A stretch of 39,988 nucleotides of DNA from Pseudomonadales bacterium (lineage in GTDB: Bacteria > Pseudomonadota > Gammaproteobacteria > Pseudomonadales > Azotimanducaceae). The stretch spans positions 1-39,988 of the forward strand of contig JAHRWB010000119.1 in NCBI GenBank assembly GCA_019090385.1, given 5' to 3'. The notes below the pieces were generated by a model that had not been told where the DNA came from, made no database searches, and saw only the letters and a list, made by a program, of their open reading frames with translations. Every line of letters starts with the position of its first letter. The first letter of the stretch is position 1. The position numbers were made by a program, and so were the translations under genes. Shown one piece after another: positions 3,567 through 35,697 of the stretch.

Positions 3567-4139
3567 TTATTCGTGTACGGTTCGTGTAATTGTACCTGTA
3601 GGTACGTAATCAAAAATAAAAGTGATTTGATCCTCATTGCCTTTGTTGATTTCGCTGTGCCTCACCTGGTTATTTACTTCGTATGCTTCCCCAACACAAA
3701 ACTCATAGGGTTGGTTACCGATTATAAAGCTGCTCTGGGAATTATTGGCAATAGGCACATGTATCCTGTGAGCACCCTGGGCTGATAAATCCTGCTCCGC
3801 GGATGCCTCGAACGCTTCTCCGGCGGGCAGGCGCGTAGTTATAGCCCGGATTATTGTGCCGCCAGCACCGTAGTGACTGGCAAGAATACTGTGCATTACT
3901 GGCACTGCGGCTTTCTCAAGTTGATCCCATGCGGGGCCTTTGCTCACCTCAATATGTGGCCAATGGCTGCAATCGCTCAATACAAGCTGAGCGGTGTTGG
4001 CATTGGATGCCATTGGGCTGGCTTCCTCTTTGGCGCTAATTGTGTCAGCCCACATTGGCTCTGGCATTTCCAATATGGCCTCTACCAGGGGTTGTGAATC
4101 GACAGCACCCAACATTTTTAATGATTTACCAATATCCAT
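3567..4139 (-). CDS. Aspartyl/asparaginyl beta-hydroxylase-like protein
   Basis: A 190-residue protein that resembles the 2-oxoglutarate/Fe(II) AspH-type hydroxylase domain. The features are HRIHVPI, then F-x-IG, then GEAYEVNNQVRHSEINKG near the C-terminus. These supply the two histidines expected for iron and a basic environment for 2-oxoglutarate. AspH-type enzymes are known to lack the usual acidic iron ligand, so a His pair is enough. The ATG at 4139 is chosen because GAGGT precedes it at good spacing; the frame also has a GTG four codons earlier without such a site. It stands alone, with about 145 bases to the MetX-family gene upstream. The substrate is unknown. Confidence 0.72.
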   Translation of the reverse strand: MDIGKSLKMLGAVDSQPLVEAILEMPEPMWADTISAKEEASPMASNANTAQLVLSDCSHWPHIEVSKGPAWDQLEKAAVPVMHSILASHYGAGGTIIRAITTRLPAGEAFEASAEQDLSAQGAHRIHVPIANNSQSSFIIGNQPYEFCVGEAYEVNNQVRHSEINKGNEDQITFIFDYVPTGTITRTVHE

Positions 4140-4284
4140 AGCGGACCTCACTTGTTACTGCCCATATGCGCAAACTGTGCCATTTTGCACACCTTTCGTC
4201 TAGCAGAGCTGACACTTGAGTTAAAAATATGTGCTGAATCGGGGGTAGGTCGGTGACCTGCAGGCTTTCACGATAAAGCGCGTT

Positions 4285-5376
4285 TTATTCAGCAAAAAAG
4301 TCTGCGATAACGGGTCGGAATCGATTCATATCAACTAAAAAGGAATCGTGTCCCTGAATGGACTCCAGGCAATTAAAACTGACGTCGTCTACTGCTGCTC
4401 CCAGGGCATCACTGAGTTCCCGTTGTTGCTGAATAGGAAATAATATATCACTGTTAACACCGATGACTTTGGCGCGTGTAATTTTTAATCTGGAAAATGC
4501 CTGCTCAATGCTGCCACCAAAATCTGCGGTATCAAAAAGGTCCATGGCCTGGGACAGATATAGATAGCAGTTTGTATCAAAGCTCCCAACGAAGCTGTTG
4601 GCCTGGTGCTCTAGATAGGATTCTACTTCAAAACTCAGGCTGAAAGGGCCCTCACTCGCAGTACCGATTGTGCTGAATGCACGCTCTCTCGCAAAGCGTG
4701 TTTCCCACTCTATTGCTGAACGGTAGGAGATCATGCCTAGTTTTCTGGCCAGTTTCATGCCACTTGCCGGGGGCGTGTCCAGATCATACAGCCCGTTTTT
4801 CCAGGTGGGGTCTTCACGGATGATCTCTCGTTGAAGTGATCGCAGTGCTATGGCGAAGGGCAGTGCCCGTGCCGCAGAGGATATAGAAACCAGTGAACGG
4901 CTAAGCTCTGGATATAAAAGACAGAAAGCCAAAGCTATCATGCCGCCCATGGAGGCTCCCACGGTCGAATAAAGTGAGTTTATTTTCAGTGCGTTGATAA
5001 CTTCAACGCTGGCTTTTGCGATATCCTCGATACTGAGCTGGGGGAAATCCAATCGATAGATTTTACCTGTATCAGGGTTCACCGAAGCGGAGCCAGTGGA
5101 GCCAAAACAACTACCCAGTGAATTTACACAGACTACAAAATACTGTCGTGTATCTATGGGTTTGCCTGGCCCCACCATGTCCTCCCACCACCCAGGGGTG
5201 GTATCTTCTGTTGAAGATGCGATGTGGGCAGAGGGTGATAACCCGGTGAAAACCAGGACTGCATTGTCACGCTGGGAATTCAGCTCTCCCCAGGTTTCAT
5301 AGGCTACTTGAGGGGAACTTAAGGTGCCTTTCTTCATTCGAAATTCACCCTCTATGGTGTGATAGTGCTTCGCCAT
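4285..5376 (-). CDS. metX: MetX-family O-acyltransferase (homoserine or serine acyltransferase)
   Basis: A 363-residue alpha/beta-hydrolase-fold acyltransferase. It has the nucleophile elbow GASMGG, an acid in GVNSDILFP and a His in QGHDSF near the end, which is the MetX triad order. The family transfers an acyl group from acetyl- or succinyl-CoA to homoserine (methionine route) or serine (cysteine route). The oxyanion-side motif reads NSLGSCFGSTG, not the GGCxGTTGP usual in homoserine acetyltransferases, so substrate and acyl donor are uncertain; see findings. AGGGC lies upstream of the ATG. No SAM riboswitch or met-box was recognised in the 150 bases upstream. The symbol names the family, not the proven activity. 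Confidence 0.85.
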   Translation of the reverse strand: MAKHYHTIEGEFRMKKGTLSSPQVAYETWGELNSQRDNAVLVFTGLSPSAHIASSTEDTTPGWWEDMVGPGKPIDTRQYFVVCVNSLGSCFGSTGSASVNPDTGKIYRLDFPQLSIEDIAKASVEVINALKINSLYSTVGASMGGMIALAFCLLYPELSRSLVSISSAARALPFAIALRSLQREIIREDPTWKNGLYDLDTPPASGMKLARKLGMISYRSAIEWETRFARERAFSTIGTASEGPFSLSFEVESYLEHQANSFVGSFDTNCYLYLSQAMDLFDTADFGGSIEQAFSRLKITRAKVIGVNSDILFPIQQQRELSDALGAAVDDVSFNCLESIQGHDSFLVDMNRFRPVIADFFAE

Positions 5377-5527: not shown

Positions 5528-6799
5528 TTAATGTGTGTTGGCAGCAATTTCCTGTCGTAGGGCACGTAGCATGTTGTGAATATCTTGGCCGATATGTGGC
5601 CCAAGGGATGCGGACTCTTCGTAGTTTTCATTGCGCCCGGATGCCCATTCATCCTCGGGGATGAAGTAACCCAGGGCCCCGCCGCTTAAGCCCATCATCA
5701 GTTGAACAGGGGCGGGTGAGTTGCTTTTAATTGCCAGCCCCAGGCGCGTTATAGCTGCGCCTGGAAGGGCAATGGCCTCCACTTGGTCTCCCAATTGAAT
5801 TATGCTCAAACGTGCGTGGGCTGTGACATTCCACAAAGGGCCGCTAATATCTTCCTGGGTAAGGCCTAAAAAGTGCGCCAATATGAACCGAGTGTTCTCT
5901 ACTGCGGTGGTAAAATCTTTGTGCCTGATGTGGATGCCCGTACCAATGGATTTACGCGATACCAAGCTGTTATAGGCTTCATAGGCAATACTTTCCCCAT
6001 AATCCTGGGCGCTTTGCCATTCGTTTTCCGGAAAACCTGGCAGTGGATTTACGTCACCAAGCGTGCCATTGATATAAACTACAGGTGCTTCGGTAAGCTC
6101 GCTGGCCGTAATACGCAGATAATGCACATAATCGCTGGAGATGCTTTGGTTTTTGCTGCCAGTTAATATGGGTTGAGCCGCAAAATTGATTATCGAGCCC
6201 AGGCGAGTCCCGTTTTCAGACAGTGCTTCTATTACGGTCAGAGTATCATCGGTAATTTCCCAGCCTCGCTGATTAAAGTTCTTTATTGTGCTGGTTGAGT
6301 AAAACAAGTTTGCGGGGTGGCGATTTAGATACGCTTCGGAAACTGCCCTGGTGGTTTGTAAAACTAGTTCTTCAATATATTGACTGGGGGCTGCTCCCCA
6401 CAGGCCGATTAAGTCAGGGGCTGCGTGGGTATGTGTCGCTCCAATAAAAAGGTTGTCCGTGGGTATTTTGGTGATCTTGCTGATTTTTTCGCTTATGCGT
6501 TTTACCAGGGTGCTGGGTAGCCCCAGACTATCGAGAACAACAATACACATATCGTTACTCGAGTCAGATACACACGCGGCGCTGGCTTTTAAGGGATCAT
6601 GGATAGACTCGGCAGCGCCGCGTAATTTCCATAGGCCGTACCCGCCCATGTATATATTCCCGTCATTAATAAGTTCTTGGCTTGGTGTGATATCCAATAC
6701 GGCAAATCCGACTTGGTGGGTTGCGGCATTTATTTCGCTGCCCAGATAAAAAATAAAACATGTGAAAAGGATTTGAATATAGTTGTGCTTTGCGAGCAT
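5528..6799 (-). CDS. Neutral/alkaline ceramidase-family protein, probably altered active site
   Basis: A secreted protein of 423 residues from the ATG at 6799. That start gives a clean signal peptide (Lys-His, hydrophobic run, then EINAA), and CAGGAG lies upstream; the frame stays open to 6871. The fold signature of the neutral ceramidase N-terminal domain is clear: VGFAVLDITP, MGGYG, HDPLKA, VVLDSLG and GATHTHAAPD. Neutral ceramidases hydrolyse the amide of ceramide in a zinc-dependent way. However, the second His-ligand motif (normally FAxHP) reads FAAQP, and the catalytic GDVSPN hexapeptide reads GDVNPL. It is also much shorter than classical ceramidases and lacks the C-terminal immunoglobulin-like domain. 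Ceramidase activity is therefore doubtful. It lies downstream of the GMC oxidoreductase gene on the same strand with about 160 bases between. Confidence 0.78.
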   Translation of the reverse strand: MLAKHNYIQILFTCFIFYLGSEINAATHQVGFAVLDITPSQELINDGNIYMGGYGLWKLRGAAESIHDPLKASAACVSDSSNDMCIVVLDSLGLPSTLVKRISEKISKITKIPTDNLFIGATHTHAAPDLIGLWGAAPSQYIEELVLQTTRAVSEAYLNRHPANLFYSTSTIKNFNQRGWEITDDTLTVIEALSENGTRLGSIINFAAQPILTGSKNQSISSDYVHYLRITASELTEAPVVYINGTLGDVNPLPGFPENEWQSAQDYGESIAYEAYNSLVSRKSIGTGIHIRHKDFTTAVENTRFILAHFLGLTQEDISGPLWNVTAHARLSIIQLGDQVEAIALPGAAITRLGLAIKSNSPAPVQLMMGLSGGALGYFIPEDEWASGRNENYEESASLGPHIGQDIHNMLRALRQEIAANTH

Positions 6800-6959
6800 A
6801 TTGGGTGTCTTGCTCCTGATCTTTGCTAGCCTTTTCCTTAACCTTGCGTATATGGGCTTACACAATGCCATAAAATTTATATTGCAGGCAGGGGCTTATC
6901 CTCAGATTATCGCTTATTCTGCGAGGTATGGAAATAGTGTCGACTAATGGATATAGCGC

Positions 6960-8681
6960 TCAACTCTTGTGTGGAGAACCCAGCTGCATTTTGATTTTAT
7001 CAGCTATTCGAAAGGCATTTGCATAAATAGTCCAGGTAGGCGTTACACTGCCGCCGTTAGGCATAAAGCTACCATCTGTGACAAACAAATTATCTGTGCC
7101 ATGTACCCGACAGTCAGCATCCAGAGCTGAACTATGGGCATGCTTGCCGAACCTGAGTCCGCCCGCCATCAGATTAGCGGTGGGGGATGTAAAAGCATTG
7201 CCATAGTAGCTATGTGCGCCCATTTGCTTCATCACGGCTACACCTTTATCGACAATATATTTGGCTACCTTTAAGTCGTGGGGGTGGTAACCAACTTTGA
7301 TTTTTGCGACGGGAGAACCCCATTGATCTTGTTTCGAGCTATCCAGGCTGACGTGGCATTCATCGGTGGGCAACCAATCACAGAATACCTCGAATTTAAA
7401 ATCCCGTGATTGCGTAAAGTGGGATTTCAGTCGATGTTTGAATGCACTGCCCCACACCAGTTTACCGTCTTGGTCCCGCTTGAGTTTGTTGGCAGCTGAG
7501 GTAGGGGAAGGTGGGTCAAATACGAAATCGATAGTGCCGCCTTTAATCCGACCACCAAATTTTTCTTTGTCGTCAATGAAATACCAATCTTGCAATGCAC
7601 GATTAAAAAATGGACCACGTATTTTTAGGGCGGCCGCATCGCTTGAATTGAGTTTGCTTAGATCAAATATGCCGTGGCCAGTACCACCGGCGCAGCAATG
7701 CAGGTTTTTTCCGATTTGCTGGTAACGATTGCCGATACCATCAGCATGTTTTTGCCCGGGAGAACTCAGCAGCAGTCGACTGGACTCCATGGAGTAACAG
7801 GCGACCACGATAATTTTTGCCTTGATGCGAGAAGGCGCTTGATGACTATTGGGTCCGTTGTCATAGTAGTCGACAGAAATGGCATTACCTTTGTTGTCCG
7901 TATTAATTTTGTAGGCTTTGGCGTGAGTAAAAATTTTGCAACGGCCGGTATTCACGCACTTGTCGAGCAGGGCAGCTCTGGAGCTGCCTTTTGCTCCGGA
8001 GTGGCAGCCATAACTGCCGCAATAACCAGAGTATTCACAAGCTGCTCGTCCGTCGTTGGGACGCGAGAGTATTGCGCGAGCCATTGGAAATGGGTGTAGT
8101 CCCAGCGCCTTCGCAGCTTTGTCAAACCTTGTGGCAATGGGGTGCTCGGCAGTGGGGGGAAAAGGAAAATCTGCTGTAGAGCGTGGCTCGAGGTTTGGAT
8201 GCGGGACGACTTTTCCGGATATGCCTATCTCTTGTTCCACCTTGGTATAGTAGGGTTCCAGGTCCTCGTAACCGATAGGCCAGTCAGCAATGTTGGCTTT
8301 TTGGATCGGGCCAAATTCAGATAACAAACGGAAATCTTCGGGTTTTAATCGGTGAAAGTAGCCACTCATAAAATTGCTGGCACCGCCGACTATGTTGCCG
8401 CCCCAAAATTGACCGGTTGTGTTTGATGACCAGGTCCCGTCAGTTTTGGGGCTTTCCAGTATGTGGGGTTCATTTTGAATTTTGGAACGAAAAATTTTTC
8501 GTCGGGATAACATTTCATCTTTCTTAAAATCCTGTTCATCGTACCAGCCACCTTTTTCAAGTACGGCAACCTGGAATCCCGCTTTTGAAAGTTCATAGGC
8601 AACTGGTCCGCCTCCAGCGCCACTGCCTATGATGCAGATGTCGAATTCGTCCTGGGTGTGTTTTGTTGATATAGAGGCCAT
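6960..8681 (-). CDS. GMC-family FAD oxidoreductase (sugar/alcohol dehydrogenase type)
   Basis: A 573-residue flavoprotein. The ADP-binding loop GSGAGGG follows the first strand near residue 17, and the C-terminal GMC block has NLFVTDGSFMPNGG followed by SVTPTWTIYANAFR. A cysteine motif CEYSGYCGSYGC lies mid-protein; related FAD-dependent glucose/gluconate dehydrogenases have cysteines here that can hold an iron-sulfur cluster. The product has no signal of its own. The gene for a gluconate-dehydrogenase subunit-3-like Tat lipoprotein ends three bases upstream, and the usual arrangement is that the small subunit carries the flavoprotein through the Tat pathway. It probably oxidises a sugar, polyol or alcohol in the periplasm. 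No cytochrome subunit is encoded nearby. Confidence 0.87.
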   Translation of the reverse strand: MASISTKHTQDEFDICIIGSGAGGGPVAYELSKAGFQVAVLEKGGWYDEQDFKKDEMLSRRKIFRSKIQNEPHILESPKTDGTWSSNTTGQFWGGNIVGGASNFMSGYFHRLKPEDFRLLSEFGPIQKANIADWPIGYEDLEPYYTKVEQEIGISGKVVPHPNLEPRSTADFPFPPTAEHPIATRFDKAAKALGLHPFPMARAILSRPNDGRAACEYSGYCGSYGCHSGAKGSSRAALLDKCVNTGRCKIFTHAKAYKINTDNKGNAISVDYYDNGPNSHQAPSRIKAKIIVVACYSMESSRLLLSSPGQKHADGIGNRYQQIGKNLHCCAGGTGHGIFDLSKLNSSDAAALKIRGPFFNRALQDWYFIDDKEKFGGRIKGGTIDFVFDPPSPTSAANKLKRDQDGKLVWGSAFKHRLKSHFTQSRDFKFEVFCDWLPTDECHVSLDSSKQDQWGSPVAKIKVGYHPHDLKVAKYIVDKGVAVMKQMGAHSYYGNAFTSPTANLMAGGLRFGKHAHSSALDADCRVHGTDNLFVTDGSFMPNGGSVTPTWTIYANAFRIADKIKMQLGSPHKS

Positions 8682-8684
8682 GGA

Positions 8685-9284
8685 CTATGTGAAATCCAAA
8701 TATGTTTTGCCAGTTGTTGGTCGGGGGAAGCCAGGTTGGTGTTCCAGCCAGCGCCATCCTTTTTGCTCGATATTGCCACCATAAACCGGGTCGAGCATGA
8801 GTGCTTCTGTTAGGTAGTACATGAGCAGTGAGATCCAGTTTTCTCCTGCGCGAGTGGATGCGATGCTATTGAGCACCCGATCCTGTTGAATGACGGTCAA
8901 GCTCGTAAAATCTGAAGCAAACGAACGTTGGGCCATATCATTGAGCCAGCTGCAGCCTTTGACTATAAATGCCGGGTCTCCGTCTTCAATATTTGCGGGG
9001 TCTTGTAAGGCCCCTTCAAGATAAGCCAGTGCATTTAAATCCTGCGCATCTGGTCCATTGCCATCTTTCGGAAACAGTTGCATTTGTACGGCATCAATGA
9101 GGGTGCGCTGGGCAGTTGATAAAACGAGGTTTTCAGGGATGTTGGCAGATGTCCCTGGGTTTTGTTGAATGGCAGTGGCACGCTGTAAGATGACTGGCTT
9201 ACAGGCGGTGATACTGGCTAACATTGATGCCGATACACCCTTTGCCAGCAGGGCGCGGCGGCTCAAATATCTCTTTTGTTCCAC
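8685..9284 (-). CDS. Gluconate 2-dehydrogenase subunit 3-family Tat lipoprotein
   Basis: The frame is open from 9377, but the GTG at 9284 is preferred. It places a twin-arginine motif (SRRALL) at residues 5-10 and a lipobox (ASITAC) about 20 residues later, and leaves only about 20 bases of overlap with the upstream TlpA-like gene. The mature part matches the small subunit that accompanies GMC-type gluconate and sugar dehydrogenases: LSTAQRTLIDAVQMQLFP near the start, NALAYLEGAL, and a Trp/Tyr-rich end containing DPVYGGN and GWRWLEHQPGFPRP. Its known role is to partner and export the flavoprotein encoded directly downstream. No strong Shine-Dalgarno is visible, so translation may be coupled. 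The start codon is the least certain point. Confidence 0.78.
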   Translation of the reverse strand: MEQKRYLSRRALLAKGVSASMLASITACKPVILQRATAIQQNPGTSANIPENLVLSTAQRTLIDAVQMQLFPKDGNGPDAQDLNALAYLEGALQDPANIEDGDPAFIVKGCSWLNDMAQRSFASDFTSLTVIQQDRVLNSIASTRAGENWISLLMYYLTEALMLDPVYGGNIEQKGWRWLEHQPGFPRPTTGKTYLDFT

Positions 9285-9820
9285 TGTTCTAACATAGGTT
9301 TTAGGTTGGTAGGCACATGATCCCGGTGTTGAATCATGCCGTTGATATCGATGATAAACTCTGTAGGTGTACCCCATACACCGTATAGTTCAGTGACACT
9401 TTTGTCGTGATCAAAAGCCAACGGGTAATTGATATTTTGTACTCGCTGAAATTGTTTGCTGGCTTCTGCGGAATCATTCAGGCTGGTGTTCACAGCAATA
9501 ATTTTTATTTGCTCGGATAGTTCGCTTTGAATATTTTTTAGATGAGGAATTTTTTTCATGCAGTAGTTGCACCAGGTATTCCAGAATACAAGGTAAACAG
9601 ATTTTACCCCACGGTAGTCAGCCAAATTGAAATTGGTACCATCGAGTTGGGTAATCGTAAATTCCGGGGCAATTTGGTCTGCCAGTGCTGTTCCATAGGT
9701 GCCATTTACTGTATCCGCTTTCAGGGAATTCAGCTGGCTTGTACTGAGCATGACACAGATAAACACAACCAGATGTGCTCGATGGGCCATGAGTGCTTGA
9801 AATATCCGGTGAATGCTCAT
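9263..9820 (-). CDS. TlpA/ResA-like thioredoxin-fold protein
   Basis: About 185 residues from the ATG at 9820. That start gives an N-terminal hydrophobic signal or anchor (roughly residues 15-30) and avoids overlap with the DUF454 gene upstream; the frame is open to a TTG at 9859. The redoxin domain shows FTITQLDGTNFNLADYRG, then FWNTWCNYC with the active-site CxxC, and a cis-proline near GVWGTPTEF. TlpA/ResA proteins are membrane-tethered periplasmic thiol reductases, often serving cytochrome or cupredoxin maturation. Here it sits in front of a periplasmic flavin dehydrogenase pair with a Cys-rich motif, so a role in keeping those cysteines reduced is plausible but unproven. Confidence 0.82.
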   Translation of the reverse strand: MSIHRIFQALMAHRAHLVVFICVMLSTSQLNSLKADTVNGTYGTALADQIAPEFTITQLDGTNFNLADYRGVKSVYLVFWNTWCNYCMKKIPHLKNIQSELSEQIKIIAVNTSLNDSAEASKQFQRVQNINYPLAFDHDKSVTELYGVWGTPTEFIIDINGMIQHRDHVPTNLKPMLEQWNKRDI

Positions 9821-18740: not shown

Positions 18741-20579
18741 TTATAAGGGATATAAATCCGGTAGCGTGTGGTCATTATGCCTGGTTTTGATTAAGTGCTT
18801 GCTGTTTTGGATACGCATGGATTTCACCTGTTCAATGATTTGTTTCCTGAGTGAGGCATTGGTATCGATTGGTTTTTCTAAATTCTGGGCTACTACTGGC
18901 ATTGAGTGCTGAGCTGCTGCTGATGTCAGATTACTGTCCTGTGCAGCATAGATTTTTTCGCTGAGTTGATAAAATAGCTGCTGTGATTCCTTATGACGGC
19001 AAAAAACCTGAATAGCGGCGTTGGGTGCAAGTTGGTAGTGTGCTGCTAACCAATCTGTCAGTGTTGATTTGATGGCGTGGAGATCATTGTTCTGAACAGC
19101 TGATTCCAAATCCTCAAAGCAATTACGTTCATGCTGAATCTCAGTACTTACTCCAAAACAGCGTTGGTAAATCCGGCGTATCGTATATACCAGGCTTGTG
19201 CGTTTGATTAAAAGGGCAATAAAAAAAATCAGTAACGCCAGTAGTAAGATCATCACCGTCTGTATTGAAGATAATAAGCCTTGCGGGGCATTCTGCTCTT
19301 GGTGTTCAGCATTATCCTTTATATTGAATTCTTGTTCCGGGGAGGCTGGCTGGGTTTCTGGTATGGGTGAATTGTCAGCCAAGTCGTTGGGTGCCGCTGG
19401 ATTAAGGGCAACCTGCATATTATGTTCGTCAATACTGGCAACTTTGACTTCTTCGGTCACTGTGTCCCACCAGGTCAGGCTAATTTTTGGCAAGTTGATA
19501 TGGCCGCTACGTTGGGCGGAAACAGCATAGCTTTCTTTTCTTATTCCTGAGAAGCCATTGGCCATGGTACGTTCTGAAATATCTGCAGGATCAGGGTAGG
19601 CACGCAGTGCTTTCGGGAACTGTGGTGTGAGAGGCGGAATAATTGAACCAATGTTTGCACTGGCATATACCATAAGTATGCGCGTAACCGGAATGCCAAC
19701 TACAAGTTGATCCGTATGGGCACTCCAGGATTCTGCCAGGGTTACCTGGGTTGCCGGTAGCCAGGGCTGAGAGCTGGGGTAGGTTGCCGGGATGGGTTTT
19801 ACATTAATGGTGTATGCCTCAGACGTGGCACTGATGCGTGTACGGCCCCCTGCAAACCCGGGTTGGGATCTCAGTCTGACATAGCTACTTGCATTTGTAG
19901 CGGGTATGACCAGGTTGCCGCTTCGTTCTGGGTAGATAGCGTATTTTTGTTCCGTCATGGTGTACTGACGGTTGTTAATGGTTACTGCCTGGGGGGTTAG
20001 TGGAGAGAAGCTTTTAACCACAGCGTGTGCAATCTCGGGTGCAGGAGGGGATTCACCATATATTTGTGCACCACGTGCGTAGTACAGTTTGCGTGAATAT
20101 ATTAACTGGGCCTGGACGTAAATGTTATCTGCGGAAATTTCTGACTCAAAGAATATAAGCGATTGAATAGCTGCACGGACTTGCTGGTCCAGCGGATCGA
20201 CGCGCAAACTTAGAGGTTCAGAGTGCTCAGCTCCAAGGCTAATGGCGGGTATGGTAAGCTCTCCGGTTTTTTTGGGTTCGAGTGTTAATTGCCAATCTAT
20301 CCAGGAACTAACACGACCGTTGATGCTTTGATATTGGCTGTTGGTTCGGTTGCCGAGTATAGTGAAATCTTTCTCAAGAGGGGAAAAATCTGGTTCACCT
20401 TGTTTATCAGAGCGTAGGGTTAATTCTATTGTCTGGGTTTCAAGGATAGTGGAGCGGTCCAGGAAGGCACTGAGTTCTGCATGGGTATTGAGCACCGGCA
20501 GGCATAAAAGCAGAAACATCAGGCAATGAAACCAGCGTAAATTATATCGCTGCCTGCTTCCAGTACAGTATATAGTCAC
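18741..20579 (-). CDS. batD: BatD-like membrane protein
   Basis: A 612-residue membrane protein that closes the MoxR/Bat operon. A signal segment (MFLLLCLPVLNTHA) precedes a large beta-rich periplasmic part: AFLDRSTILETQTIELTL, then FTILGNRTNSQYQSING, then SWIDWQLTLEPKKTGELTIP. These are typical BatD phrases. One transmembrane helix near residues 425-447 is followed by a cytoplasmic helical tail. In Bacteroides and Leptospira, Bat proteins have been linked to oxygen or oxidative stress tolerance, but the mechanism is not settled. The start is a GTG overlapping the previous stop as GTGA. It converges with pepN, with 15 bases between. Confidence 0.87.
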   Translation of the reverse strand: MTIYCTGSRQRYNLRWFHCLMFLLLCLPVLNTHAELSAFLDRSTILETQTIELTLRSDKQGEPDFSPLEKDFTILGNRTNSQYQSINGRVSSWIDWQLTLEPKKTGELTIPAISLGAEHSEPLSLRVDPLDQQVRAAIQSLIFFESEISADNIYVQAQLIYSRKLYYARGAQIYGESPPAPEIAHAVVKSFSPLTPQAVTINNRQYTMTEQKYAIYPERSGNLVIPATNASSYVRLRSQPGFAGGRTRISATSEAYTINVKPIPATYPSSQPWLPATQVTLAESWSAHTDQLVVGIPVTRILMVYASANIGSIIPPLTPQFPKALRAYPDPADISERTMANGFSGIRKESYAVSAQRSGHINLPKISLTWWDTVTEEVKVASIDEHNMQVALNPAAPNDLADNSPIPETQPASPEQEFNIKDNAEHQEQNAPQGLLSSIQTVMILLLALLIFFIALLIKRTSLVYTIRRIYQRCFGVSTEIQHERNCFEDLESAVQNNDLHAIKSTLTDWLAAHYQLAPNAAIQVFCRHKESQQLFYQLSEKIYAAQDSNLTSAAAQHSMPVVAQNLEKPIDTNASLRKQIIEQVKSMRIQNSKHLIKTRHNDHTLPDLYPL

Positions 20580-22342
20580 CAGACTTGCTCCGATTTTTTA
20601 GCTTGATACTCACCCCGCCGAAGGCGCTGATTTGTTTCATGTTGAAATTTGCGCTTCAGCAATCCGCCAGGGTCGTCGGGCACTCTGCGTAACCACTGTT
20701 CCATGGCTTCTTGCTGTTCATCGCGGCTCTCTTCTTCAACACTTTGCATATCGGTTTTGGGCTGGTCTTTTGGGTCCGCTTGTTGTTCAGATTTTTGTTC
20801 TTTGTCTTGTTTTTTTTCCTGGGAGGGTTGTTGCTGATCTTCCTCTTTTTGCTGGTCCCCTGAATCTGTACTTGAATCCTGTTGAGATGCATCGGATGAC
20901 TGATTGTCCTGAGACCGATCCTCTTGCTCTCCTTCTTTGTCCGGATCTGAAGATTGTTGGTCTTGTTCCTGTTTAAGTTGCTCTACCAGCTGCTTGTTAA
21001 ACTGAGCATTTTCATGAGTGGGATTTTTGGCGAGCACTTTCTCATAGGCTTTTATCGCGCCGGAATAGTTACCTAATTTGGCGAACGCATTTCCTGCATT
21101 GTAATTTTGCTCAAGACTACTGAAGGTGGAAGCCGCTGAGTCGAAGGCACCGGCACGGTACTCCGCTGTGGCCTGCCAATCCTGCTGCTGGAATAGCTGT
21201 GCAGCTTTTTCTGCCTGTCCGGAATTGAGCGCATTATAGGCTTGTTGGTCCGTGCGCTGCCATAGACCGCTCCAAAAGTCATCCAGTGTCGATGCGCGTA
21301 CTGGGCTCGGTAATATTGCAATACAAAGTATAAGTAGAAAACCTCTGCGAAAGCTTATTGCCATAAGCGGGATAAGCAGGAGCAAGAGCAGATAACCACG
21401 ATCGGCCCAGACGTCGAACTGGCGTTCGACCTCTTTGGTTTCCTGGTTTTCGCCAATAGGGCTTCCCAGTAGATAGCGTATATCAGCATCGCCAATGCCT
21501 GATTGTCTGAATCTGCCAAAGCTTCTGCTGGCGATTTTTTCCAAATGACTTGTATCGAGTTTTGCAATAACCTGGCGCCCCTGGGAATCTGGCAAAAAGT
21601 CGCCTTTGCGGTTCATAAAATCCAGTGGTATGGGGCCACCTGGCTTTGTGCCGATGCCCAGTATAGAAATGGGGATGTCTCGGCTTGCGAATTTCTTTAG
21701 ATCGGAACCCTCGGAGATGCCATCTGTTAGCAGCAATATTCTGCCCCGTAATAAATGCGCACTGGTAATTAAATTACGTGCTAGTTCTACAGCTAGTTCA
21801 GGGTTACTTCCAGCTACCGGCATCATTGCTGGACGCAGTGAAAGCAGCAGGTTTTCTATTGTGTCCGTATCATCAGTGAGCGGTGTGACGATATGGGCAT
21901 CACCGGCGTAGACCACAAGGGCCGTGTATCCTTCATCTCGGGTGCGAAGAATATCCGTTATTTTGTGGCGAGCATGGATGAGTCGGGATGGTGATAGGTC
22001 CTGGGCGTACATAGAGAGCGAAAGATCGAGAATGATAACAAGTGCATCATTCTTCTGTTCCATGCGCTGGGGCAGGCGATTCCAGGTAGGTCCCGCCAGT
22101 GCCAGAGCCATTAGAACGAGACCTATCGCGGTCAGAATTGAGACCCAGATATTTTTGTGTTCGCTTTTCTTTTCCAGTAACACGGCGAGCAATTCAGGCT
22201 GAATGGCTTTTCGCCACTCAGAATTTGCAGCTTTGTCTTTCAATATTATCCATGCCAGTACCATTGCCGGAACGATCGCCAGTAGCCAAAGAGGCCTTAG
22301 AAAATGGAACTCTGCGGGATTAAAAAGAGCCACTGTGTCCAT
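20576..22342 (-). CDS. batB: BatB/BatC-type VWA and TPR protein
   Basis: A 588-residue protein that joins a von Willebrand A domain to a TPR region, so it covers both BatB and BatC. Two N-terminal membrane helices (about residues 17-33 and 67-83) precede the VWA domain with the metal site DLSLSM at 106-111. A third helix (LLLLLLIPLMAISF) comes after it. TPR-like repeats follow (NALNSGQAEKAAQLF, NAGNAFAKLGNYSGAIKAYEKVL). The tail from about residue 460 is a Gln/Asp/Glu/Ser/Lys-rich low-complexity stretch, ending in a short basic segment. The VWA domain should be periplasmic and the tail outside too. It overlaps the BatA stop by one base and BatD by four. Confidence 0.9.
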   Translation of the reverse strand: MDTVALFNPAEFHFLRPLWLLAIVPAMVLAWIILKDKAANSEWRKAIQPELLAVLLEKKSEHKNIWVSILTAIGLVLMALALAGPTWNRLPQRMEQKNDALVIILDLSLSMYAQDLSPSRLIHARHKITDILRTRDEGYTALVVYAGDAHIVTPLTDDTDTIENLLLSLRPAMMPVAGSNPELAVELARNLITSAHLLRGRILLLTDGISEGSDLKKFASRDIPISILGIGTKPGGPIPLDFMNRKGDFLPDSQGRQVIAKLDTSHLEKIASRSFGRFRQSGIGDADIRYLLGSPIGENQETKEVERQFDVWADRGYLLLLLLIPLMAISFRRGFLLILCIAILPSPVRASTLDDFWSGLWQRTDQQAYNALNSGQAEKAAQLFQQQDWQATAEYRAGAFDSAASTFSSLEQNYNAGNAFAKLGNYSGAIKAYEKVLAKNPTHENAQFNKQLVEQLKQEQDQQSSDPDKEGEQEDRSQDNQSSDASQQDSSTDSGDQQKEEDQQQPSQEKKQDKEQKSEQQADPKDQPKTDMQSVEEESRDEQQEAMEQWLRRVPDDPGGLLKRKFQHETNQRLRRGEYQAKKSEQVW

Positions 22343-23340
22343 CAGGTTTTTACCGCCCGGGTATTAGAAAGTAGCAGACTCAGGTAAAGAACAATGACGA
22401 CAAGCCAGGCTGATCCCAGTGGCCATACGAACAAAGACTGGGTCGGTCTGAATACTTCCGGATCCTGTTCAACGGGCTCTAGGGAATCGATCAATGCATA
22501 TATCTCGCGCAGCTCTACGGTATTGTGGGCTCTAAAATACTCTCCACCGGTGGCTTCAGCGATACGCGTTAGTGTTTCCTCATCGAGATCTGCAGAGGGA
22601 TTTATTTTTCTGGGGCTGAAGGCACCTAAAAACCCGCTTACCTGCATTTCGTTGGAGCCCACACCGATGGTATGTATTTTGACATTGGCGTGACTCGCGA
22701 GTTCAGCAGCTTTGATGGGTTCTATTTCCCCTGCATTACTCGCTCCATCGGTAAGTAATATGAGTAAGCGAGTGGATTCCGGGCGCTCCCTCAGCCTTTT
22801 TACCGCCAGTCCTATTGCATCGCCAATGGCTGTTTTTCCTCCAGCTATGCCCACGGGTGCTTCCGTGAGAAATTTAGTTACGGTATTTAAATCGAAGGTT
22901 AATGGTGCCTGAAGGTAAGCGTTGCTGCCAAATAAGATCAACCCCACTCTATCGCCCTGTCTTTGCTCAAGAAACTCGGAAACGACGGATTTAACGACGA
23001 CCAGTCTATTTACCTGGCGCTTGTGTAATTCCATATCTTCGGTATTCATACTTCCAGATACGTCCACGGCCATGATCATATCGCGCCCGGTTACACTCAG
23101 ATTTACCGGTTCACCAATCCACTCCGGCCTGCTGGCAGCGGTAATTAGTAAGATCCATGCAATCCAGAGCAGTATCAGTCTCCATCCGGAAGAGGATTTC
23201 CCGGAGGGGGTTTTATCAGTATGAAAATAATCCATATTGGGAACCGACAAAGCCGCCTGGCTATTGGATCCGGAGAGCATCCTCACCAAAATAGGCAGTG
23301 GCAATAGCAGAAACATCAACGGCCAAATAAATTCAATCAT
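22342..23340 (-). CDS. batA: BatA-like VWA-domain membrane protein
   Basis: A 332-residue protein: an N-terminal hydrophobic segment, a second helix near residues 54-69, the VWA domain with a canonical metal-binding site DVSGSM (from residue 93), LLTDGASNAG for the later site residue, and a C-terminal helix near 305-325. This is the Aerotolerance-regulator N-terminal plus VWA layout of BatA. VWA proteins of this group work with the MoxR ATPase encoded in the same operon, probably in folding or assembly of envelope complexes. It overlaps the DUF4381 gene by four bases (ATGA). Confidence 0.9.
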   Translation of the reverse strand: MIEFIWPLMFLLLPLPILVRMLSGSNSQAALSVPNMDYFHTDKTPSGKSSSGWRLILLWIAWILLITAASRPEWIGEPVNLSVTGRDMIMAVDVSGSMNTEDMELHKRQVNRLVVVKSVVSEFLEQRQGDRVGLILFGSNAYLQAPLTFDLNTVTKFLTEAPVGIAGGKTAIGDAIGLAVKRLRERPESTRLLILLTDGASNAGEIEPIKAAELASHANVKIHTIGVGSNEMQVSGFLGAFSPRKINPSADLDEETLTRIAEATGGEYFRAHNTVELREIYALIDSLEPVEQDPEVFRPTQSLFVWPLGSAWLVVIVLYLSLLLSNTRAVKT

Positions 23341-23813
23341 GCAGATTTTTCCATTCTTCTTATCACCGCGATAACAGATGTGTGCAAATCTGTCAGGTCT
23401 GCTTGGGAATGCGTCTGGTATCGCTGATCTCCCAATGCTTGTCCTGGGCCTTGGGTGAATTCAGTGCTACAGGAAATATCATCCAGATATGTGAGCCAGC
23501 CTTTACCGGATAGTGGTGCGACATGACTAGCTCGGTCGCTGTGGATAGCCGCGCGTTTCAGTAGTTGATTCAGCAGCTCAACATATTCGTTAGATGTAAT
23601 GTTGTGCTGGATATAGGCAGTATTGTGATCCAAAATTATATCGCGGGCTTGTTTGAAGGGCTGATGACGAAAATGACGGTTAAGCAGATGGCGGTAAAGG
23701 TAAGCTATACCAAGCAGTATCAGTATGCCCAGAACCCACCAACCTGGCGCAGGTGGCCACCAGCCGGGAGCTATTGGGATCTGGATATCTTTGAGTTGCG
23801 CGAGGGGATCCAT
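23337..23813 (-). CDS. DUF4381 membrane protein of the MoxR/Bat operon
   Basis: A 158-residue protein with a single transmembrane helix near residues 25-43, preceded by the Pro/Trp-rich PIAPGWWPPAPGWWVLG that marks DUF4381. A cytoplasmic helical domain follows, with KQARDIILDHNTAYIQHN and YVELLNQLLKRAA. Its place between the DUF58 and BatA genes is typical of this operon in Gammaproteobacteria. The exact role is unknown; it probably belongs to the same membrane complex. Confidence 0.88.
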   Translation of the reverse strand: MDPLAQLKDIQIPIAPGWWPPAPGWWVLGILILLGIAYLYRHLLNRHFRHQPFKQARDIILDHNTAYIQHNITSNEYVELLNQLLKRAAIHSDRASHVAPLSGKGWLTYLDDISCSTEFTQGPGQALGDQRYQTHSQADLTDLHTSVIAVIRRMEKSA

Positions 23814-23816
23814 TGG

Positions 23817-24752
23817 CTAACCCGAGTAATTTATTAGATGGTTGGCCAGATTTTCTTCGGCGGCTTCAGCAGTGGAAATCTCCTCAAAATGCATACCGTA
23901 GCTTTGACAAAAACTTTGAATCTGGTCGTGAAATTCTTGATATCTTTGCTGGTAACGATCTCTTAATTGCTTGTTTCCAGTATCGATCTGGTTCCTGGAC
24001 TGACCATCCGTGATTGCATACAGGTTAGCCGGCGGGAGTGTTGCTTCCAGGGGGTCAGAGATCAGTATGAGTGTCAGGTCATTGTGTCTGCTGAGAGCCA
24101 GCATATGTGGTTTCCATAAATCAAAGGGGGTTCTAAAGTCACTAACGATATAAATTTGGTGGCCGTTGTGGGCTGTTTTCTTCAATTGCGCAAGGGCACG
24201 GGAAAAATAATTTTCAGCACTGTTTTGCCGGGTATTCCTATTCAGTTTTTGATTTGCCTCACTGATTAAATTCAAAAAACGCACTAGCGTGCGAACACTG
24301 CGCCGGGGTTTTATTGCTTGAATGGTTTGGTTGTCCAATACCAGCCCGCCGACTCGGTTTCCCTGATTCAGTGTGTGCCATGCTAGCACGGCACTGACTT
24401 CAGCAGCTGCCACAGATTTAAGACGATTGATGCTACCAAAAAACATACTCTGTGTTTGATCACACAAAATGAGTGTGGGGCGTTCGCGCTCTTCTTCAAA
24501 GATCTTGGTGTGGGTCTTGGCTTTGCGAGCGCTGACTCGCCAGTCAATCGTTCTTACATCATCTCCACTTTGGTATAGCCGGACTTCTGCAAAGTCCATA
24601 CCCCGCCCACGCATTTTTGATCTACGGTGTCCGCCTGTCATTCGGGTTCGTGCACGGCGAGGGGTTTTTGCGCCAAAATGTCTGGTTCGAAAACCTAATA
24701 GATCGTCGAGCTTGGCGTATGCGCCCAAAATCATGTGTGGAGTTGTTTTCAA
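23817..24752 (-). CDS. DUF58 domain protein
   Basis: A 311-residue cytosolic protein. The DUF58 signature is clear: RRSKMRGRGMDFAEVRLYQSGDDVRTIDWRVSARKAKTHTKIFEEERERP, given here as its key parts GRGMDF, DVRTIDW and KIFEEERE. A VWA-like fold follows with LILCDQTQSMFFG as a degenerate metal-site loop. It has no membrane segment. DUF58 genes almost always follow a moxR gene, as here, where the two overlap by four bases. It is likely a MoxR partner. Confidence 0.9.
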   Translation of the reverse strand: MKTTPHMILGAYAKLDDLLGFRTRHFGAKTPRRARTRMTGGHRRSKMRGRGMDFAEVRLYQSGDDVRTIDWRVSARKAKTHTKIFEEERERPTLILCDQTQSMFFGSINRLKSVAAAEVSAVLAWHTLNQGNRVGGLVLDNQTIQAIKPRRSVRTLVRFLNLISEANQKLNRNTRQNSAENYFSRALAQLKKTAHNGHQIYIVSDFRTPFDLWKPHMLALSRHNDLTLILISDPLEATLPPANLYAITDGQSRNQIDTGNKQLRDRYQQRYQEFHDQIQSFCQSYGMHFEEISTAEAAEENLANHLINYSG

Positions 24753-25723
24753 GGAACTGGAACGATTTCGACAATGTCATCAAGGATTTTATCGGCAGTA
24801 ATACCCTGAGCATCGGCTTCAAAACTCAGGATCAGTCGATGGCGAAGGGTGTCATGTACCACTGCCTGCACATCTTCCGGTGTCACAAAGGTTCTGCCAT
24901 CCAGCCAGGCTACAGCGCGGCTGCATAAATCCATTGCTATAGTGCCGCGTGGACTGGCACCATAGTCTATCCAGCGGGCAATTTCTTCTCCGTACGCCTG
25001 GGGGTTTCGGGTCGCCATAATCAATTGTACGAGGTACTCTTCTACAGAATCGGCCATGTGCAGACTTATTATTTCCTTACGTGCGGCAAAGATATCTGCT
25101 GCAGCAATCATTTGAACAGGCTCCTGGTTGCCTAACTCGAGGGTTTCGCCTCTTACCAGCTGTAAAATTTTGTGCTCGGCCTCTTTGTTCGGGAAATCTA
25201 CCCTTAAATGCATTAGAAATCGGTCCAGTTGCGCCTCTGGTAGCGGATAGGTGCCTTCCTGCTCAATAGGATTTTGTGTTGCCATGACGAGAAATAGCTC
25301 AGGTAGAGGGAAAGTTTCTCGGCCGATGCTGACCTGTTTTTCGCCCATTGCTTCGAGCAGTGCAGATTGTACCTTGGCAGGTGCGCGATTAATTTCGTCT
25401 GCCAAAAGTAGATTATGGAATACCGGGCCTTTCTGGAAAATAAAGCTACCATCTTCTGGCCGATATATTTCGGTGCCCGTTACATCACTCGGCAATAAGT
25501 CGGGAGTGAACTGAATTCTGTGAAAGTCTCCTTCCACAACGTTGGCCAGCTCTTTTATTGCCCGTGTTTTGGCCAGTCCTGGTGCGCCCTCGACTAAAAG
25601 GTGGCCGCCGCATAAAAGCGCCAGCACGAGGCGCTCAACAAGTGTTTGTTGCCCGATGATCCTGCTGTCGAGCCACTGAATGGTGTTTTTAACCTTAATA
25701 AGCGTTGGGGATGATTCTGACAT
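24749..25723 (-). CDS. moxR: MoxR-family AAA+ ATPase
   Basis: A 324-residue AAA+ ATPase of the MoxR family. Walker A is GAPGLAKT (46-53), Walker B is LLLADEINRAP, and the sensor region reads VMATQNPIEQEGTYPLPEAQLDRF, which is diagnostic for MoxR. MoxR ATPases act as chaperones with VWA proteins to activate or assemble enzyme complexes. It is the first gene of the six-gene minus-strand operon; all downstream genes overlap or are a few bases apart, so a promoter in 25724-25852 should drive the whole unit. Confidence 0.95.
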   Translation of the reverse strand: MSESSPTLIKVKNTIQWLDSRIIGQQTLVERLVLALLCGGHLLVEGAPGLAKTRAIKELANVVEGDFHRIQFTPDLLPSDVTGTEIYRPEDGSFIFQKGPVFHNLLLADEINRAPAKVQSALLEAMGEKQVSIGRETFPLPELFLVMATQNPIEQEGTYPLPEAQLDRFLMHLRVDFPNKEAEHKILQLVRGETLELGNQEPVQMIAAADIFAARKEIISLHMADSVEEYLVQLIMATRNPQAYGEEIARWIDYGASPRGTIAMDLCSRAVAWLDGRTFVTPEDVQAVVHDTLRHRLILSFEADAQGITADKILDDIVEIVPVP

Positions 25724-32520: not shown

Positions 32521-35500
32521 TTGCTATCAAGGGATGGAACGGGGGCTTTGAGGAGAATCCTGGCGGGCGTGAAGCCCGGTATATCAATTGCCCTGTTTGC
32601 CCTGTTTGCTTCCCAAGCGGTCGGTGCTGTCGAAGCCGGCGCAAGATACATCATCCAGTATCATCCCAATGTACAGAGTAGTTCAGCTGGTCAAAGGCAA
32701 ATTCGGCGCAATCGAATAAAGAGCCTGGGTGGTGACATTCGAGTCGAAATACCAGGGCGGCGCGCCTATGCGGCTATGCTCTCACCCCAGGCAGTGGCCG
32801 AGTTGCGCGCCTCTCCTGACATTGCCATGGTAGAACCCGATTTTCCGCGTTATCCCATGGGGGACCGTGTACCAATCGGGATAACCGCGATTCAGGCAGA
32901 TAAAGTCAGCTACGCAGGTGATCCGGGTGTCAAAGTATGTGTTATCGATTCAGGCTACAACCTGGGCCACCCTGATTTACCCCAAGGCGTTCGAATTAAC
33001 GGCTCATCCTCAGTGGACGGGGCTTGGAACCAGGATGCCAGTGGACATGGCACGCATGTGTCTGGGACGATCATGGCTATGGAAAATAACCTGGGTGTCG
33101 TAGGTGTCCTGCCCAATGGCAATTTTGATATTCATATTCATCGGGTGTTCGATGACGAGGACGATACGGCTCCAACATCAGCGGTGGTTATGGGCATTGA
33201 TGCTTGCGTAGCCGCGGGTGCCAAAGTTATTAATCTCAGCCTGGGTTGTTCTGGCGCCAGTTGTTTTAGTGCATTTGAAAATCAGGCCTTTGCCGATGCT
33301 TATGCCCAGGGTGTACTTTCCATTGCTGCAGCAGGAAATGATGGTGATACCAATGTCAGTTATCCAGCTGCCTACGACAGTGTTGTCGCCGTGGCTGCAG
33401 TAGATCAAAATGGCCTGGTTGCCAGTTTTTCACAACAATACAGTCAGGTGGAGCTGGCTGCACCGGGGGTGAGTGTATTGTCTACTGTGCCCGTGGGCAG
33501 TGGTTTTGGCGGGACCTTGTTAGTGGGTCCCCTGGACTTATTGGCGTCCCCTCTGGCAGGTTCTGCCAATGGAGACTTTACTGGAGCAATGGTAGATTGT
33601 GGCTTAGGTGAAAACACCTGTGTTGGCGTTGAAAATGCCGTTTGTCTCATCGAAAGAGGCACTTTTTTGTTTGCAGAAAAAGCGGAAAACTGTGAACTTG
33701 GGGGTGGCAAGGCTGTGGTCATTTATAACAATGTGCCGGGTGTTTTTTCCGGCACGCTGGGAGATTACCAGACAGCATTGCCTGTGGTGGGGGTTTCCGA
33801 TACCGACGGTTCGCTGTTGCAGGGTTTTGTTGGATCCCAGGCTCGGGTAATAGTCGGGGCATCAAATTACGGTAGAAAAAATGGTACTTCCATGGCCTCT
33901 CCCCATGTGGCCGGAGCAGCAGCTCTTTTGTGGAGTTATAACCCCGGTTTTAGCAATACTCAAATAAGAGACGCGCTCAGCGCTGGAGCGGTGGATAAAG
34001 GTGTGCCAGGAAGAGACTCGGCCTATGGGTTTGGTGTACTAGACGTGGCCGCATCTCTTAACAGCCTGTTCGGTAGTGGCGATAGTGACGGGGATGGCAT
34101 GCCGGATAACTATGAGCTGTTGAATGGCTTTGATGCCTTTGATGCATCAGATGCGGCAGAAGATGCTGACGGGGATGGCTTATCGAACTTGTCTGAGTAT
34201 CTCCAAAATACCGATCCCAATGACATTAATAGTCCGGTGTTATTATCTGAGACCGAAAAACCGTTTGAGAAAAAGGTATATTTTGTCAATCCGGCAAGCA
34301 ACCTTACCCAGCAAACCTTCATTCGGTTTATTAACAATACTGATACTGCTAACGCTGTAGAAGTGCGCGGCATAGATGACACAGGTGATGCTGCGCCGCT
34401 TGGCGTGTTGCGCCTGGATATCCCGCCGCAGGCATCCATCCAGTTGAATGCCCAGGATTTGGAACTGGGTAATTCTTCTAAAGGAACGATGGGGCAATTA
34501 GGCAATGGGGCAGGAAAGTGGCAATTGTCCGTAGGCTCGAGCGCCGCACTTGAAATCATGAGCCTAATTCGTACACCTGATGGTTTTTTGACCAGCTTGA
34601 CGGAAATAGTAGCGCCGCAGGGAATGGTAAACAAAGTATTTTTCGCTAACCCAGCCAGTAATTCTTTGCAGCAGAGTTTTTTGCGAGTAGTTAACACAAC
34701 TGCAGAAACTGGACTGGTTACGGTGTCTGCGATTGACGACAATGGCAATGCCGCACCGGAGGGTACGGTGACATTTAATCTGGGCCCAAATGAGTCAAAG
34801 AATTTTAACAGTACGGATTATGAGTCTGGTAATCCTGAAAAAGGTATCAGCGGATCTTTTGGTGATGGGGAAGGCAAATGGCATCTGAGTATTACTTCTA
34901 GTTTGGATCTGGCAGTGATGAGTTTGATTCGCTCGCCGGACGGGTTTTTAACGAACCTCAGTAGTGTTGTTGATGAAGATTCGTTTGGTGTACATCGTGT
35001 ATACATGGTTAGTTCAGCGGCCAATACCTCTCAGCAGAGTTTCTTGCGGATAATTAATGCCAGTGCGAGTGAGGGATCTATAAACATTTCTGCTATAGAC
35101 GATATGGGAAACCCTGCTCCGGGAGGAGACATAGATTTTACCTTGGATGCTTTGAAAGCTATTCAGTTGAATGCCGGTGAGTTGGAATCTGGCAATGTAG
35201 ACAAGGGATTGTTCAGTGGGCTGGGTGTCGGTGATGGTCGCTGGACCCTGACAGTAACATCAAGTCTTACCTTGCAGGTTATGAATCTTATCCGTACGCC
35301 GGATGGATTTGTGACCAATATGAGTAGCTTGGCAACGGGAAATACAAATCTTGTTAGGGATGCGTATATTTTTAATCCTGCAAGCAATCAGAGTCAGCGC
35401 AGTTTTTTAAGGATAATAAATAAATCTAATTCAAGCGGGGTGGTAGATATACAGGGTGTGGATGATCTGGGCAATAGCAGTACGGCAGTTAGCCTTGCGA

Positions 35501-35697
35501 TTAACGCGGGGGCTGCTGTTGAAATATTGTCTGAAGACCTTGAGTTTGGCAATGCCGGGGCTGGTGTGTTTGGTGCATTGGGAAATGGCAGTGGAAAGTG
35601 GAGATTGTCGATTTCAGCTGATGTAGAAATTGAAGTAATGAGCTTGCTGGATACCACCTCAGGGTTCCTGACCAACTTAAGCACCACGACTAGATAG
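32521..35697 (+). CDS. Secreted subtilisin-like serine protease (S8) with four C-terminal repeat domains
   Basis: A 1058-residue exported protease. The start is a TTG preceded by GGGAG; a second TTG nine codons later is possible. Order of parts: signal peptide to about residue 40, an I9-type propeptide (RYIIQYHP to VEPDFPR), and a subtilase domain with Asp143 (VIDSG), His176 (GHGTHVSG) and Ser457 (NGTSMASPHVAGA). A PA-type insert lies at about 330-445. A calcium-type spacer with DSDGDGMPD and DADGDGLSNLSEY follows at about 520-560. Four copies of a domain of about 115 residues then begin near 584, 704, 825 and 947. It likely degrades extracellular protein. No secretion gene lies beside it. 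Confidence 0.93.
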   Translation: MLSRDGTGALRRILAGVKPGISIALFALFASQAVGAVEAGARYIIQYHPNVQSSSAGQRQIRRNRIKSLGGDIRVEIPGRRAYAAMLSPQAVAELRASPDIAMVEPDFPRYPMGDRVPIGITAIQADKVSYAGDPGVKVCVIDSGYNLGHPDLPQGVRINGSSSVDGAWNQDASGHGTHVSGTIMAMENNLGVVGVLPNGNFDIHIHRVFDDEDDTAPTSAVVMGIDACVAAGAKVINLSLGCSGASCFSAFENQAFADAYAQGVLSIAAAGNDGDTNVSYPAAYDSVVAVAAVDQNGLVASFSQQYSQVELAAPGVSVLSTVPVGSGFGGTLLVGPLDLLASPLAGSANGDFTGAMVDCGLGENTCVGVENAVCLIERGTFLFAEKAENCELGGGKAVVIYNNVPGVFSGTLGDYQTALPVVGVSDTDGSLLQGFVGSQARVIVGASNYGRKNGTSMASPHVAGAAALLWSYNPGFSNTQIRDALSAGAVDKGVPGRDSAYGFGVLDVAASLNSLFGSGDSDGDGMPDNYELLNGFDAFDASDAAEDADGDGLSNLSEYLQNTDPNDINSPVLLSETEKPFEKKVYFVNPASNLTQQTFIRFINNTDTANAVEVRGIDDTGDAAPLGVLRLDIPPQASIQLNAQDLELGNSSKGTMGQLGNGAGKWQLSVGSSAALEIMSLIRTPDGFLTSLTEIVAPQGMVNKVFFANPASNSLQQSFLRVVNTTAETGLVTVSAIDDNGNAAPEGTVTFNLGPNESKNFNSTDYESGNPEKGISGSFGDGEGKWHLSITSSLDLAVMSLIRSPDGFLTNLSSVVDEDSFGVHRVYMVSSAANTSQQSFLRIINASASEGSINISAIDDMGNPAPGGDIDFTLDALKAIQLNAGELESGNVDKGLFSGLGVGDGRWTLTVTSSLTLQVMNLIRTPDGFVTNMSSLATGNTNLVRDAYIFNPASNQSQRSFLRIINKSNSSGVVDIQGVDDLGNSSTAVSLAINAGAAVEILSEDLEFGNAGAGVFGALGNGSGKWRLSISADVEIEVMSLLDTTSGFLTNLSTTTR
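34269..35691 (+). repeat. Four diverged copies of a domain of about 115 residues
   Basis: Protein-level repeats within the S8 protease. Each copy has a Tyr/Phe-rich opening strand with NPASN, then QQSFLRIIN, an AIDDxGN loop, a DLExGN turn, GLGxGxGKWxL, and the closing VMSLIRTPDGFLTNL. DNA identity between copies is limited, so these are old duplications, unlike the short tandem arrays elsewhere. Confidence 0.9.

Follow-up and report, generated by a model that had tools for sequence, protein, structure and literature searches.

The closest described relatives of the protein reported here are the neutral ceramidases of Pseudomonas aeruginosa (structures 2zws and 2zxc) and of human (ASAH2, structure 4wgk). 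We take the zinc ligands of the human enzyme to be His194, His303, Glu540 and Tyr579. The solved chains comprise 646 and 688 residues and extend past the part that aligns with the protein described here, which has 423. Roles for His196, Arg257, Tyr579, Tyr591 and Ser354 are given in part of a review, where Ser354 is stated to stabilise Arg257 (PMC6952831), and an excerpt of a second source describes the GDVSPN hexapeptide as conserved and important to activity (PMC5874051).

Short ceramidase-like proteins are spread over many bacterial phyla and some archaea, as judged from genome-record titles and the organisms of plasmid records. Those in plasmid records, annotated "neutral/alkaline non-lysosomal ceramidase N-terminal", and those in metagenome-assembled genomes (MAGs) consist of a single catalytic domain, as does the protein studied here. 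A literature search, at the level of listings rather than full text, returned no study of any short ceramidase-like protein and no paper combining "pseudoenzyme" and "ceramidase". Pseudoenzymes can be recognised by conserved catalytic motifs that are missing on sequence analysis, as set out in a portion of a further publication (PMC10211241).

We investigated one such gene in a 39,988-nucleotide stretch of DNA from a Pseudomonadales bacterium (hereafter the window). In the reading that we judge to have a slightly better than even chance of being right, it encodes a zinc-dead pseudoenzyme, a putatively exported protein with a constrained fold, whose metal site was lost in this lineage alone and which was kept for binding.

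A short, probably exported protein with a predicted ceramidase fold

The intact open frame spans 5528-6871 on the minus strand (447 codons), and residues are numbered from this frame throughout. The following features were assigned.

5528..6799, minus strand: gene for the short ceramidase-fold protein when read from the likely start Met25 (423 aa); counted from an ATG further upstream, at 6871, the open frame has 447 aa
6725..6799, minus strand: signal-peptide-like N-terminus, Met25 to about Ala49, judged by eye

The start at 6799 had been chosen in the first-pass annotation, and it fits both the leader-like stretch and an AGGAG located 13 nt 5' of Met25, although this spacing is long. The leader suggests that the protein is probably exported. 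A scan for promoters and terminators gave signal no better than that of shuffled sequences.

The ceramidase fold proposed from the sequence was borne out by structure prediction. An AlphaFold model, built from a 56-sequence alignment (A2), had a mean pLDDT of 92 and a pTM of 0.88, and matched the solved ceramidases in VIA-align with Z scores of 40.7 for 2zws (rmsd 2.2, 376 residues aligned), 40.2 for 2zxc and 38.4 for 4wgk. The rmsd to these structures was 2.1-2.2 over 376 residues, while the next-best fold reached a Z of only 8.4; Foldseek returned a ceramidase match at E 1.7e-27. The A2 profile likewise recovered 4wgk (2.2e-38) and 2zws (3.1e-38) from PDB sequences. The alignment used for the model and the profile held 56 of 60 chosen sequences, the divergent L015, L038, L114 and one L045 frame having been left out. 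Thus, on the evidence of the predicted model, the neutral ceramidase catalytic fold is present in the window protein.

The Pfam family profile PF04734 (Ceramidase_alk) scores the protein at 22.1 bits, below the cut-off of 32.1. This is a property of the short branch to which it belongs, as five of seven relatives tested also fall under the cut-off, including its sister L003 (23.8 bits); the two that pass are L004 (40.1) and L006 (48.7). PF04734, the protein used as a query and two alignment profiles (A1 and A2) each found one match in the genome, the protein itself, and we accordingly rejected the idea that it regulates an intact paralogue.

For wider comparison we assembled 180 proteins, including that of the window, as open frames found by profile, drawn from a genome scan and from searches covering relatives and the family, order, class and phylum. 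The scan, from which 80 of 373 confirmed loci were taken, started from two peptide patterns, of which one covered the THTH motif. A separate scan of viral contigs found no relatives. Shortness had been noted as a peculiarity of the protein. It is indeed a 423-aa, single-domain protein whose frame stops where the catalytic domain does, with no C-terminal domain, but this is ordinary in its branch, and 133 of the 180 frames are no longer than 600 aa. These proportions come from searches that favour short members, frames of 670-730 aa being common among the ceramidase matches listed for the order. Our division into long (a frame of more than 600 aa between stops) and short is also crude, in that L005 and L022 count as long despite a short matched domain. 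The nearest relatives (L003, L004 and L005) are all of the short, single-domain kind.

Active-site residues

Active-site positions were mapped by profile alignment to the solved ceramidases and counted by hand, chain index plus 98 giving the human numbering.

6431..6433, minus strand: His147 codon, human His194, kept (profile alignment)
6425..6427, minus strand: His149 codon, human His196, kept (profile alignment)
6269..6271, minus strand: Gln201 codon CAG, human Arg257, replaced; Arg in the six nearest relatives (profile alignment)
6173..6175, minus strand: Gln233 codon CAA, human His303, lost (profile alignment, relatives)
6047..6049, minus strand: Asn275 codon, human Ser354 of GDVSPN (profile alignment)
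5756..5758, minus strand: Ala372 codon GCA, human Glu540, lost; PGA where relatives have PGE (profile alignment, relatives)
5666..5668, minus strand: Tyr402 codon, human Tyr579, kept (profile alignment)
5621..5623, minus strand: Tyr417 codon, human Tyr591, kept (profile alignment)

The window protein thus shares with 2zws, 2zxc and 4wgk the catalytic fold, the THTH motif and the equivalents of His194, His196, Tyr579 and Tyr591, but has no equivalents of His303, Glu540, Arg257 and Ser354. The motifs reported previously, an intact THTHAAPD followed by FAAQP and GDVNPL, are all present, and the alignment places the glutamine of FAAQP (Gln233, previously numbered Gln209) on human His303, as had been claimed. 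The loss at the metal site had nonetheless been understated, since Ala372 and Gln201 were overlooked: two of the four zinc ligands are replaced (Gln233 and Ala372), and so is Arg257, which is held to be catalytic. As just two of the original four ligands remain, one a His and the other a Tyr, ceramidase-style zinc would not be expected in this protein, and with the ligands missing, both metal and hydrolysis have probably been lost.

A hydrolase with a remodelled site, binding a metal through His147 and Tyr402 together with side chains in new positions, or working without metal, would be a different outcome, which we consider improbable. In its favour, His147, His149, Tyr402 and Tyr417 are all kept, and glutamine can occasionally bind zinc. 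Catalytic residues have also migrated in some pseudoenzymes, according to the portion of the literature cited (PMC10211241). An alanine side chain, however, cannot bind metal, Arg257 is gone as well, and nothing in the sequence points to a substitute metal site, with no His, Asp, Glu or Cys gained relative to the sister at positions five residues or fewer from site 233 or 372. Of the three possibilities first raised (a pseudo-enzyme, a binder, or a hydrolase with a new mechanism), the first is strengthened by the second lost ligand and the last appears unlikely. Catalytic motifs are missing from the window protein, as in the sequence definition of a pseudoenzyme given above, and it probably no longer works as a zinc-dependent lipid amidase.

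Zinc-site conservation among relatives

The zinc ligands are broadly conserved in the other 179 proteins. Site 147 is His in 178, with one gap; site 233 is His in 177, with one Pro (L027) and one gap; site 372 is Glu in 168 and Asp in eight, with three gaps; and site 402 is Tyr in 175, with one Val (L027) and three gaps. Conservation at His147 and His149 is partly a search artefact, because one seed pattern covered THTH, and site 417 lies inside the other pattern; sites 233, 372 and 402 lie outside both. The changes of His to Gln at 233 and of Glu to Ala at 372 are each unique to the window protein among the 180, and homologues sharing its glutamine, which had been suggested as a possible conserved Gln/Asn clade, did not materialise (0 of 179).

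Gaps aside, all the short-branch relatives examined except L027 keep the aligned zinc ligands, and the window protein and L027 are the only two of the 180 in which a ligand is missing. The six closest relatives (L003, L004, L005, L020, L021 and L022) have complete zinc ligands and an Arg at the place of Arg257. A complete aligned ligand set was also found in a Teredinibacter plasmid relative (29% identity), the one read at active-site positions among 16 plasmid records with a match.

The losses also stand out against the conservation of the protein as a whole. Of the 15 columns in which 126 homologues are conserved to 95% or more, the window protein differs at exactly two, both of them ligands. 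Departures at these columns occur elsewhere (four in L114; three in L011, L014 and L027; two in L012, L026, L029 and L108), but among proteins departing at two or more, only L027 besides the window protein does so at a ligand. Six close relatives are invariant at 71 columns, and the window protein departs at nine of these; this number is not extreme, as the same count for L005 gives 14 of 76. Three of the nine are in the active site (His233, Glu372 and Arg201), with p 0.02 for a six-residue active-site set and 0.04 for one of seven, the set being of our own choosing.

Faulty assembly or sequencing of the two ligand sites, in a gene otherwise ordinary, would give the same appearance. A single genome of the species was searched (the genus has two, one of them the window's own), and His to Gln takes one base; the Ala codon GCA, in contrast, is two bases from the GAG of L003 and L004, the Arg to Gln replacement is a third change, and errors falling on two of the four ligands are improbable. 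We therefore give an error very little credence.

L027, from the Bacillota MAG ZC3RG07, resembles the window protein in having a short, intact frame (L027:6040-7329) that lacks two of the four ligands. Its losses differ, with Pro for His303, Val for Tyr579 and Asp for Tyr591, while Glu540 and Arg257 are kept. The two proteins are 31% identical and belong to different lineages, and the ligand loss in L027 is independent.

The serine position of GDVSPN

Asn275, previously numbered Asn251, does align with Ser354, as had been proposed, but it is a weak sign of lost catalysis. Asn at this site is common to the window protein, L003 and L004, and Ser is found in L005, L020, L021 and L022. Because L003 and L004 carry Asn together with a full zinc site, the Asn would have preceded the zinc loss and is not coupled to it; the Ser of the other four relatives suggests that it probably arose in an ancestor that the window protein shares with L003 and L004. 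We likewise rejected the idea that Asn marks out a special enzyme, as GDVNP accompanies all the aligned zinc ligands in L003, L004, L024 and L033. Across the dataset, Ser occupies this site in 24 of 47 frames longer than 600 aa and in six of the 133 shorter ones. Within the short branch, the GDVSPN serine is thus a poor test of activity, and it is the zinc ligands that stay conserved.

Phylogeny and rates of change

A tree of 83 of the 180 proteins, built by fast search, groups the window protein with L003, L004 and L005 (SH-aLRT 99.4, after midpoint re-rooting, which can shift labels), placing it by descent, as far as the sequences indicate, with the short single-domain branch. Its sister L003, from the same genus, is 53% identical and has a full zinc site. 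Because the three lost residues (His, Glu and Arg) are all present in L003, L004 and L005, the losses can be placed on the terminal branch of the window protein, and because the same-genus relative keeps the full site, they would represent a loss in a single lineage.

Two neighbouring genes of the window served as controls for the rate of change.

4285..5376, minus strand: MetX-type acyltransferase, downstream neighbour, also paired with the ceramidase-fold gene in the same-genus genome
1254..3506, plus strand: prolyl oligopeptidase, second rate control; also nearby in the same-genus genome

The terminal branch leading to the window protein is 0.508 long, against 0.229 for L003. With L004 as the outgroup, relative-rate counts were 56 for the window protein and 24-25 for the sister (p 0.0005). 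Four more distant outgroups gave 38 against 26, 33 against 33, 29 against 33, and 33 against 23, a difference that is weak or absent. The corresponding window and sister values were 10 and 18 for MetX (outgroup G020), and 46 and 63 (outgroup G060) or 49 and 43 (outgroup G020) for the oligopeptidase. With the nearest outgroup, the rate of the gene is thus about double that of its sister, and the two neighbours show no acceleration. Pairwise dN was 0.41 for the ceramidase-fold gene, 0.14 for MetX and 0.28 for the oligopeptidase, synonymous sites being saturated, with no usable dN/dS.

Constraint and possible decay

A fast branch on which both ligands were lost might also be that of a dead gene, in which a recent ligand-inactivating change was followed by neutral drift, leaving a functionless frame that is still unbroken. 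This is the main rival to a retained pseudoenzyme, and one that we consider rather unlikely. We counted the private changes of the window protein at the 203 positions that are identical in L003 and L004, with conservation taken from the other relatives. There were 56, distributed as 22 of 45 sites below 30% conservation, 29 of 82 at 30-50%, three of 34 at 50-70%, none of 23 at 70-90% and two of 15 at 90% or more; the four sites that lack a conservation value carry no change. Changes therefore affect 51 of 127 sites under 50% conserved, far more than above this level (Fisher p 1.8e-7), and only five of the 56 fall at sites at least 50% conserved, where about 20 would be expected under neutrality (p 3e-6). 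These counts exclude neutral drift along the entire branch. The sole private changes at columns at least 70% conserved are the two zinc ligands (His233Gln and Glu372Ala). The probability that both hits among the 38 best conserved sites would be ligands is 0.009. Only two indel columns separate the protein from its sister over residues 50-436, which also speaks against a dead gene. This pattern indicates a fold under selection for much of the branch, with the loss concentrated at the metal site.

Other aspects of the same counts are more favourable to a dead gene. Given one lost ligand, the chance that the second hit is also a ligand has p 0.08. The private changes of the window protein lie at slightly more conserved columns than those of the sister (mean conservation 0.36 against 0.30, Mann-Whitney p 0.04), which suggests some relaxation in this lineage; the sister has 24 private changes, none at columns at least 70% conserved. 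The counts leave room for up to about 26 neutral changes among the 56, so a late phase of decay would fit. An intact frame would be unsurprising after that many neutral missense changes, the chance of meeting no stop among 14 to 28 neutral changes being 0.5 to 0.25.

Proposed history of the protein

Ranking the possible present states of the protein, we regard a metal-free, exported fold kept for binding as the most likely, and a newly dead gene as the next. For the retained pseudoenzyme, the ancestor would have been a short-branch member of the neutral ceramidase fold with a complete zinc site. The window lineage would then have lost this site through changes equivalent to His303 to Gln, Glu540 to Ala and Arg257 to Gln, and metal and hydrolysis would presumably have gone with the ligands. 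The protein may still bind something, and could have been retained because an amide or lipid-like ligand, or else a partner, fits the former pocket. It is accordingly a candidate lineage-specific pseudoenzyme within a known ceramidase family, identified in one genome.

More tentatively, and with less than an even chance in our estimation, a pseudo-ceramidase of this kind may have given up its zinc, its former amidase pocket now acting as a metal-free receptor for, or carrier of, some N-acyl lipid or amide; the independent loss in L027 suggests that the branch may be prone to such a switch. The window protein, with the fold and no metal site, and its same-genus sister, with a complete site, together offer a matched comparison of what the pocket binds and of the need for zinc in that binding.

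Genomic neighbourhood

Among the upstream and downstream neighbours of the gene, only the pairing with MetX, with the oligopeptidase beyond it, is conserved in the same-genus genome. An operon with MetX was rejected as a clue to the substrate, as MetX lies on another contig in G020 (the genome of L005, where a fragmented assembly could explain this) and has no clear orthologue in G060. Other neighbours differ, by eye, among L018, L004/L019, L021 and L027. Thus, the neighbourhood fixes no ligand for the ceramidase-fold protein.

We additionally observed that the MetX-type gene at 4285-5376 is the sole MetX-like match in the assembly. Directly upstream of the ceramidase-fold gene (6960-9377) lie a GMC oxidoreductase and a protein resembling gluconate 2-dehydrogenase subunit 3, with 3 nt between them; the same-genus genome has its best GMC matches on other contigs, and these are distant. 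The ceramidase-fold gene of L027 adjoins a frame that resembles, by eye, an M20-type dipeptidase.

Elsewhere in the window, a small protein at 3567-4151 has a sub-threshold match to aspartyl/asparaginyl hydroxylase (19.6 against 22.6 bits), and a 1058-aa subtilase with a PA domain and a weak match to TSP3 repeats is found at 32521-35697. Finally, positions 18741-25723 on the minus strand encode BatD-like, VWA with TPR, VWA, DUF58 and MoxR-type AAA proteins, a gene set that we take to be an aerotolerance-type operon.
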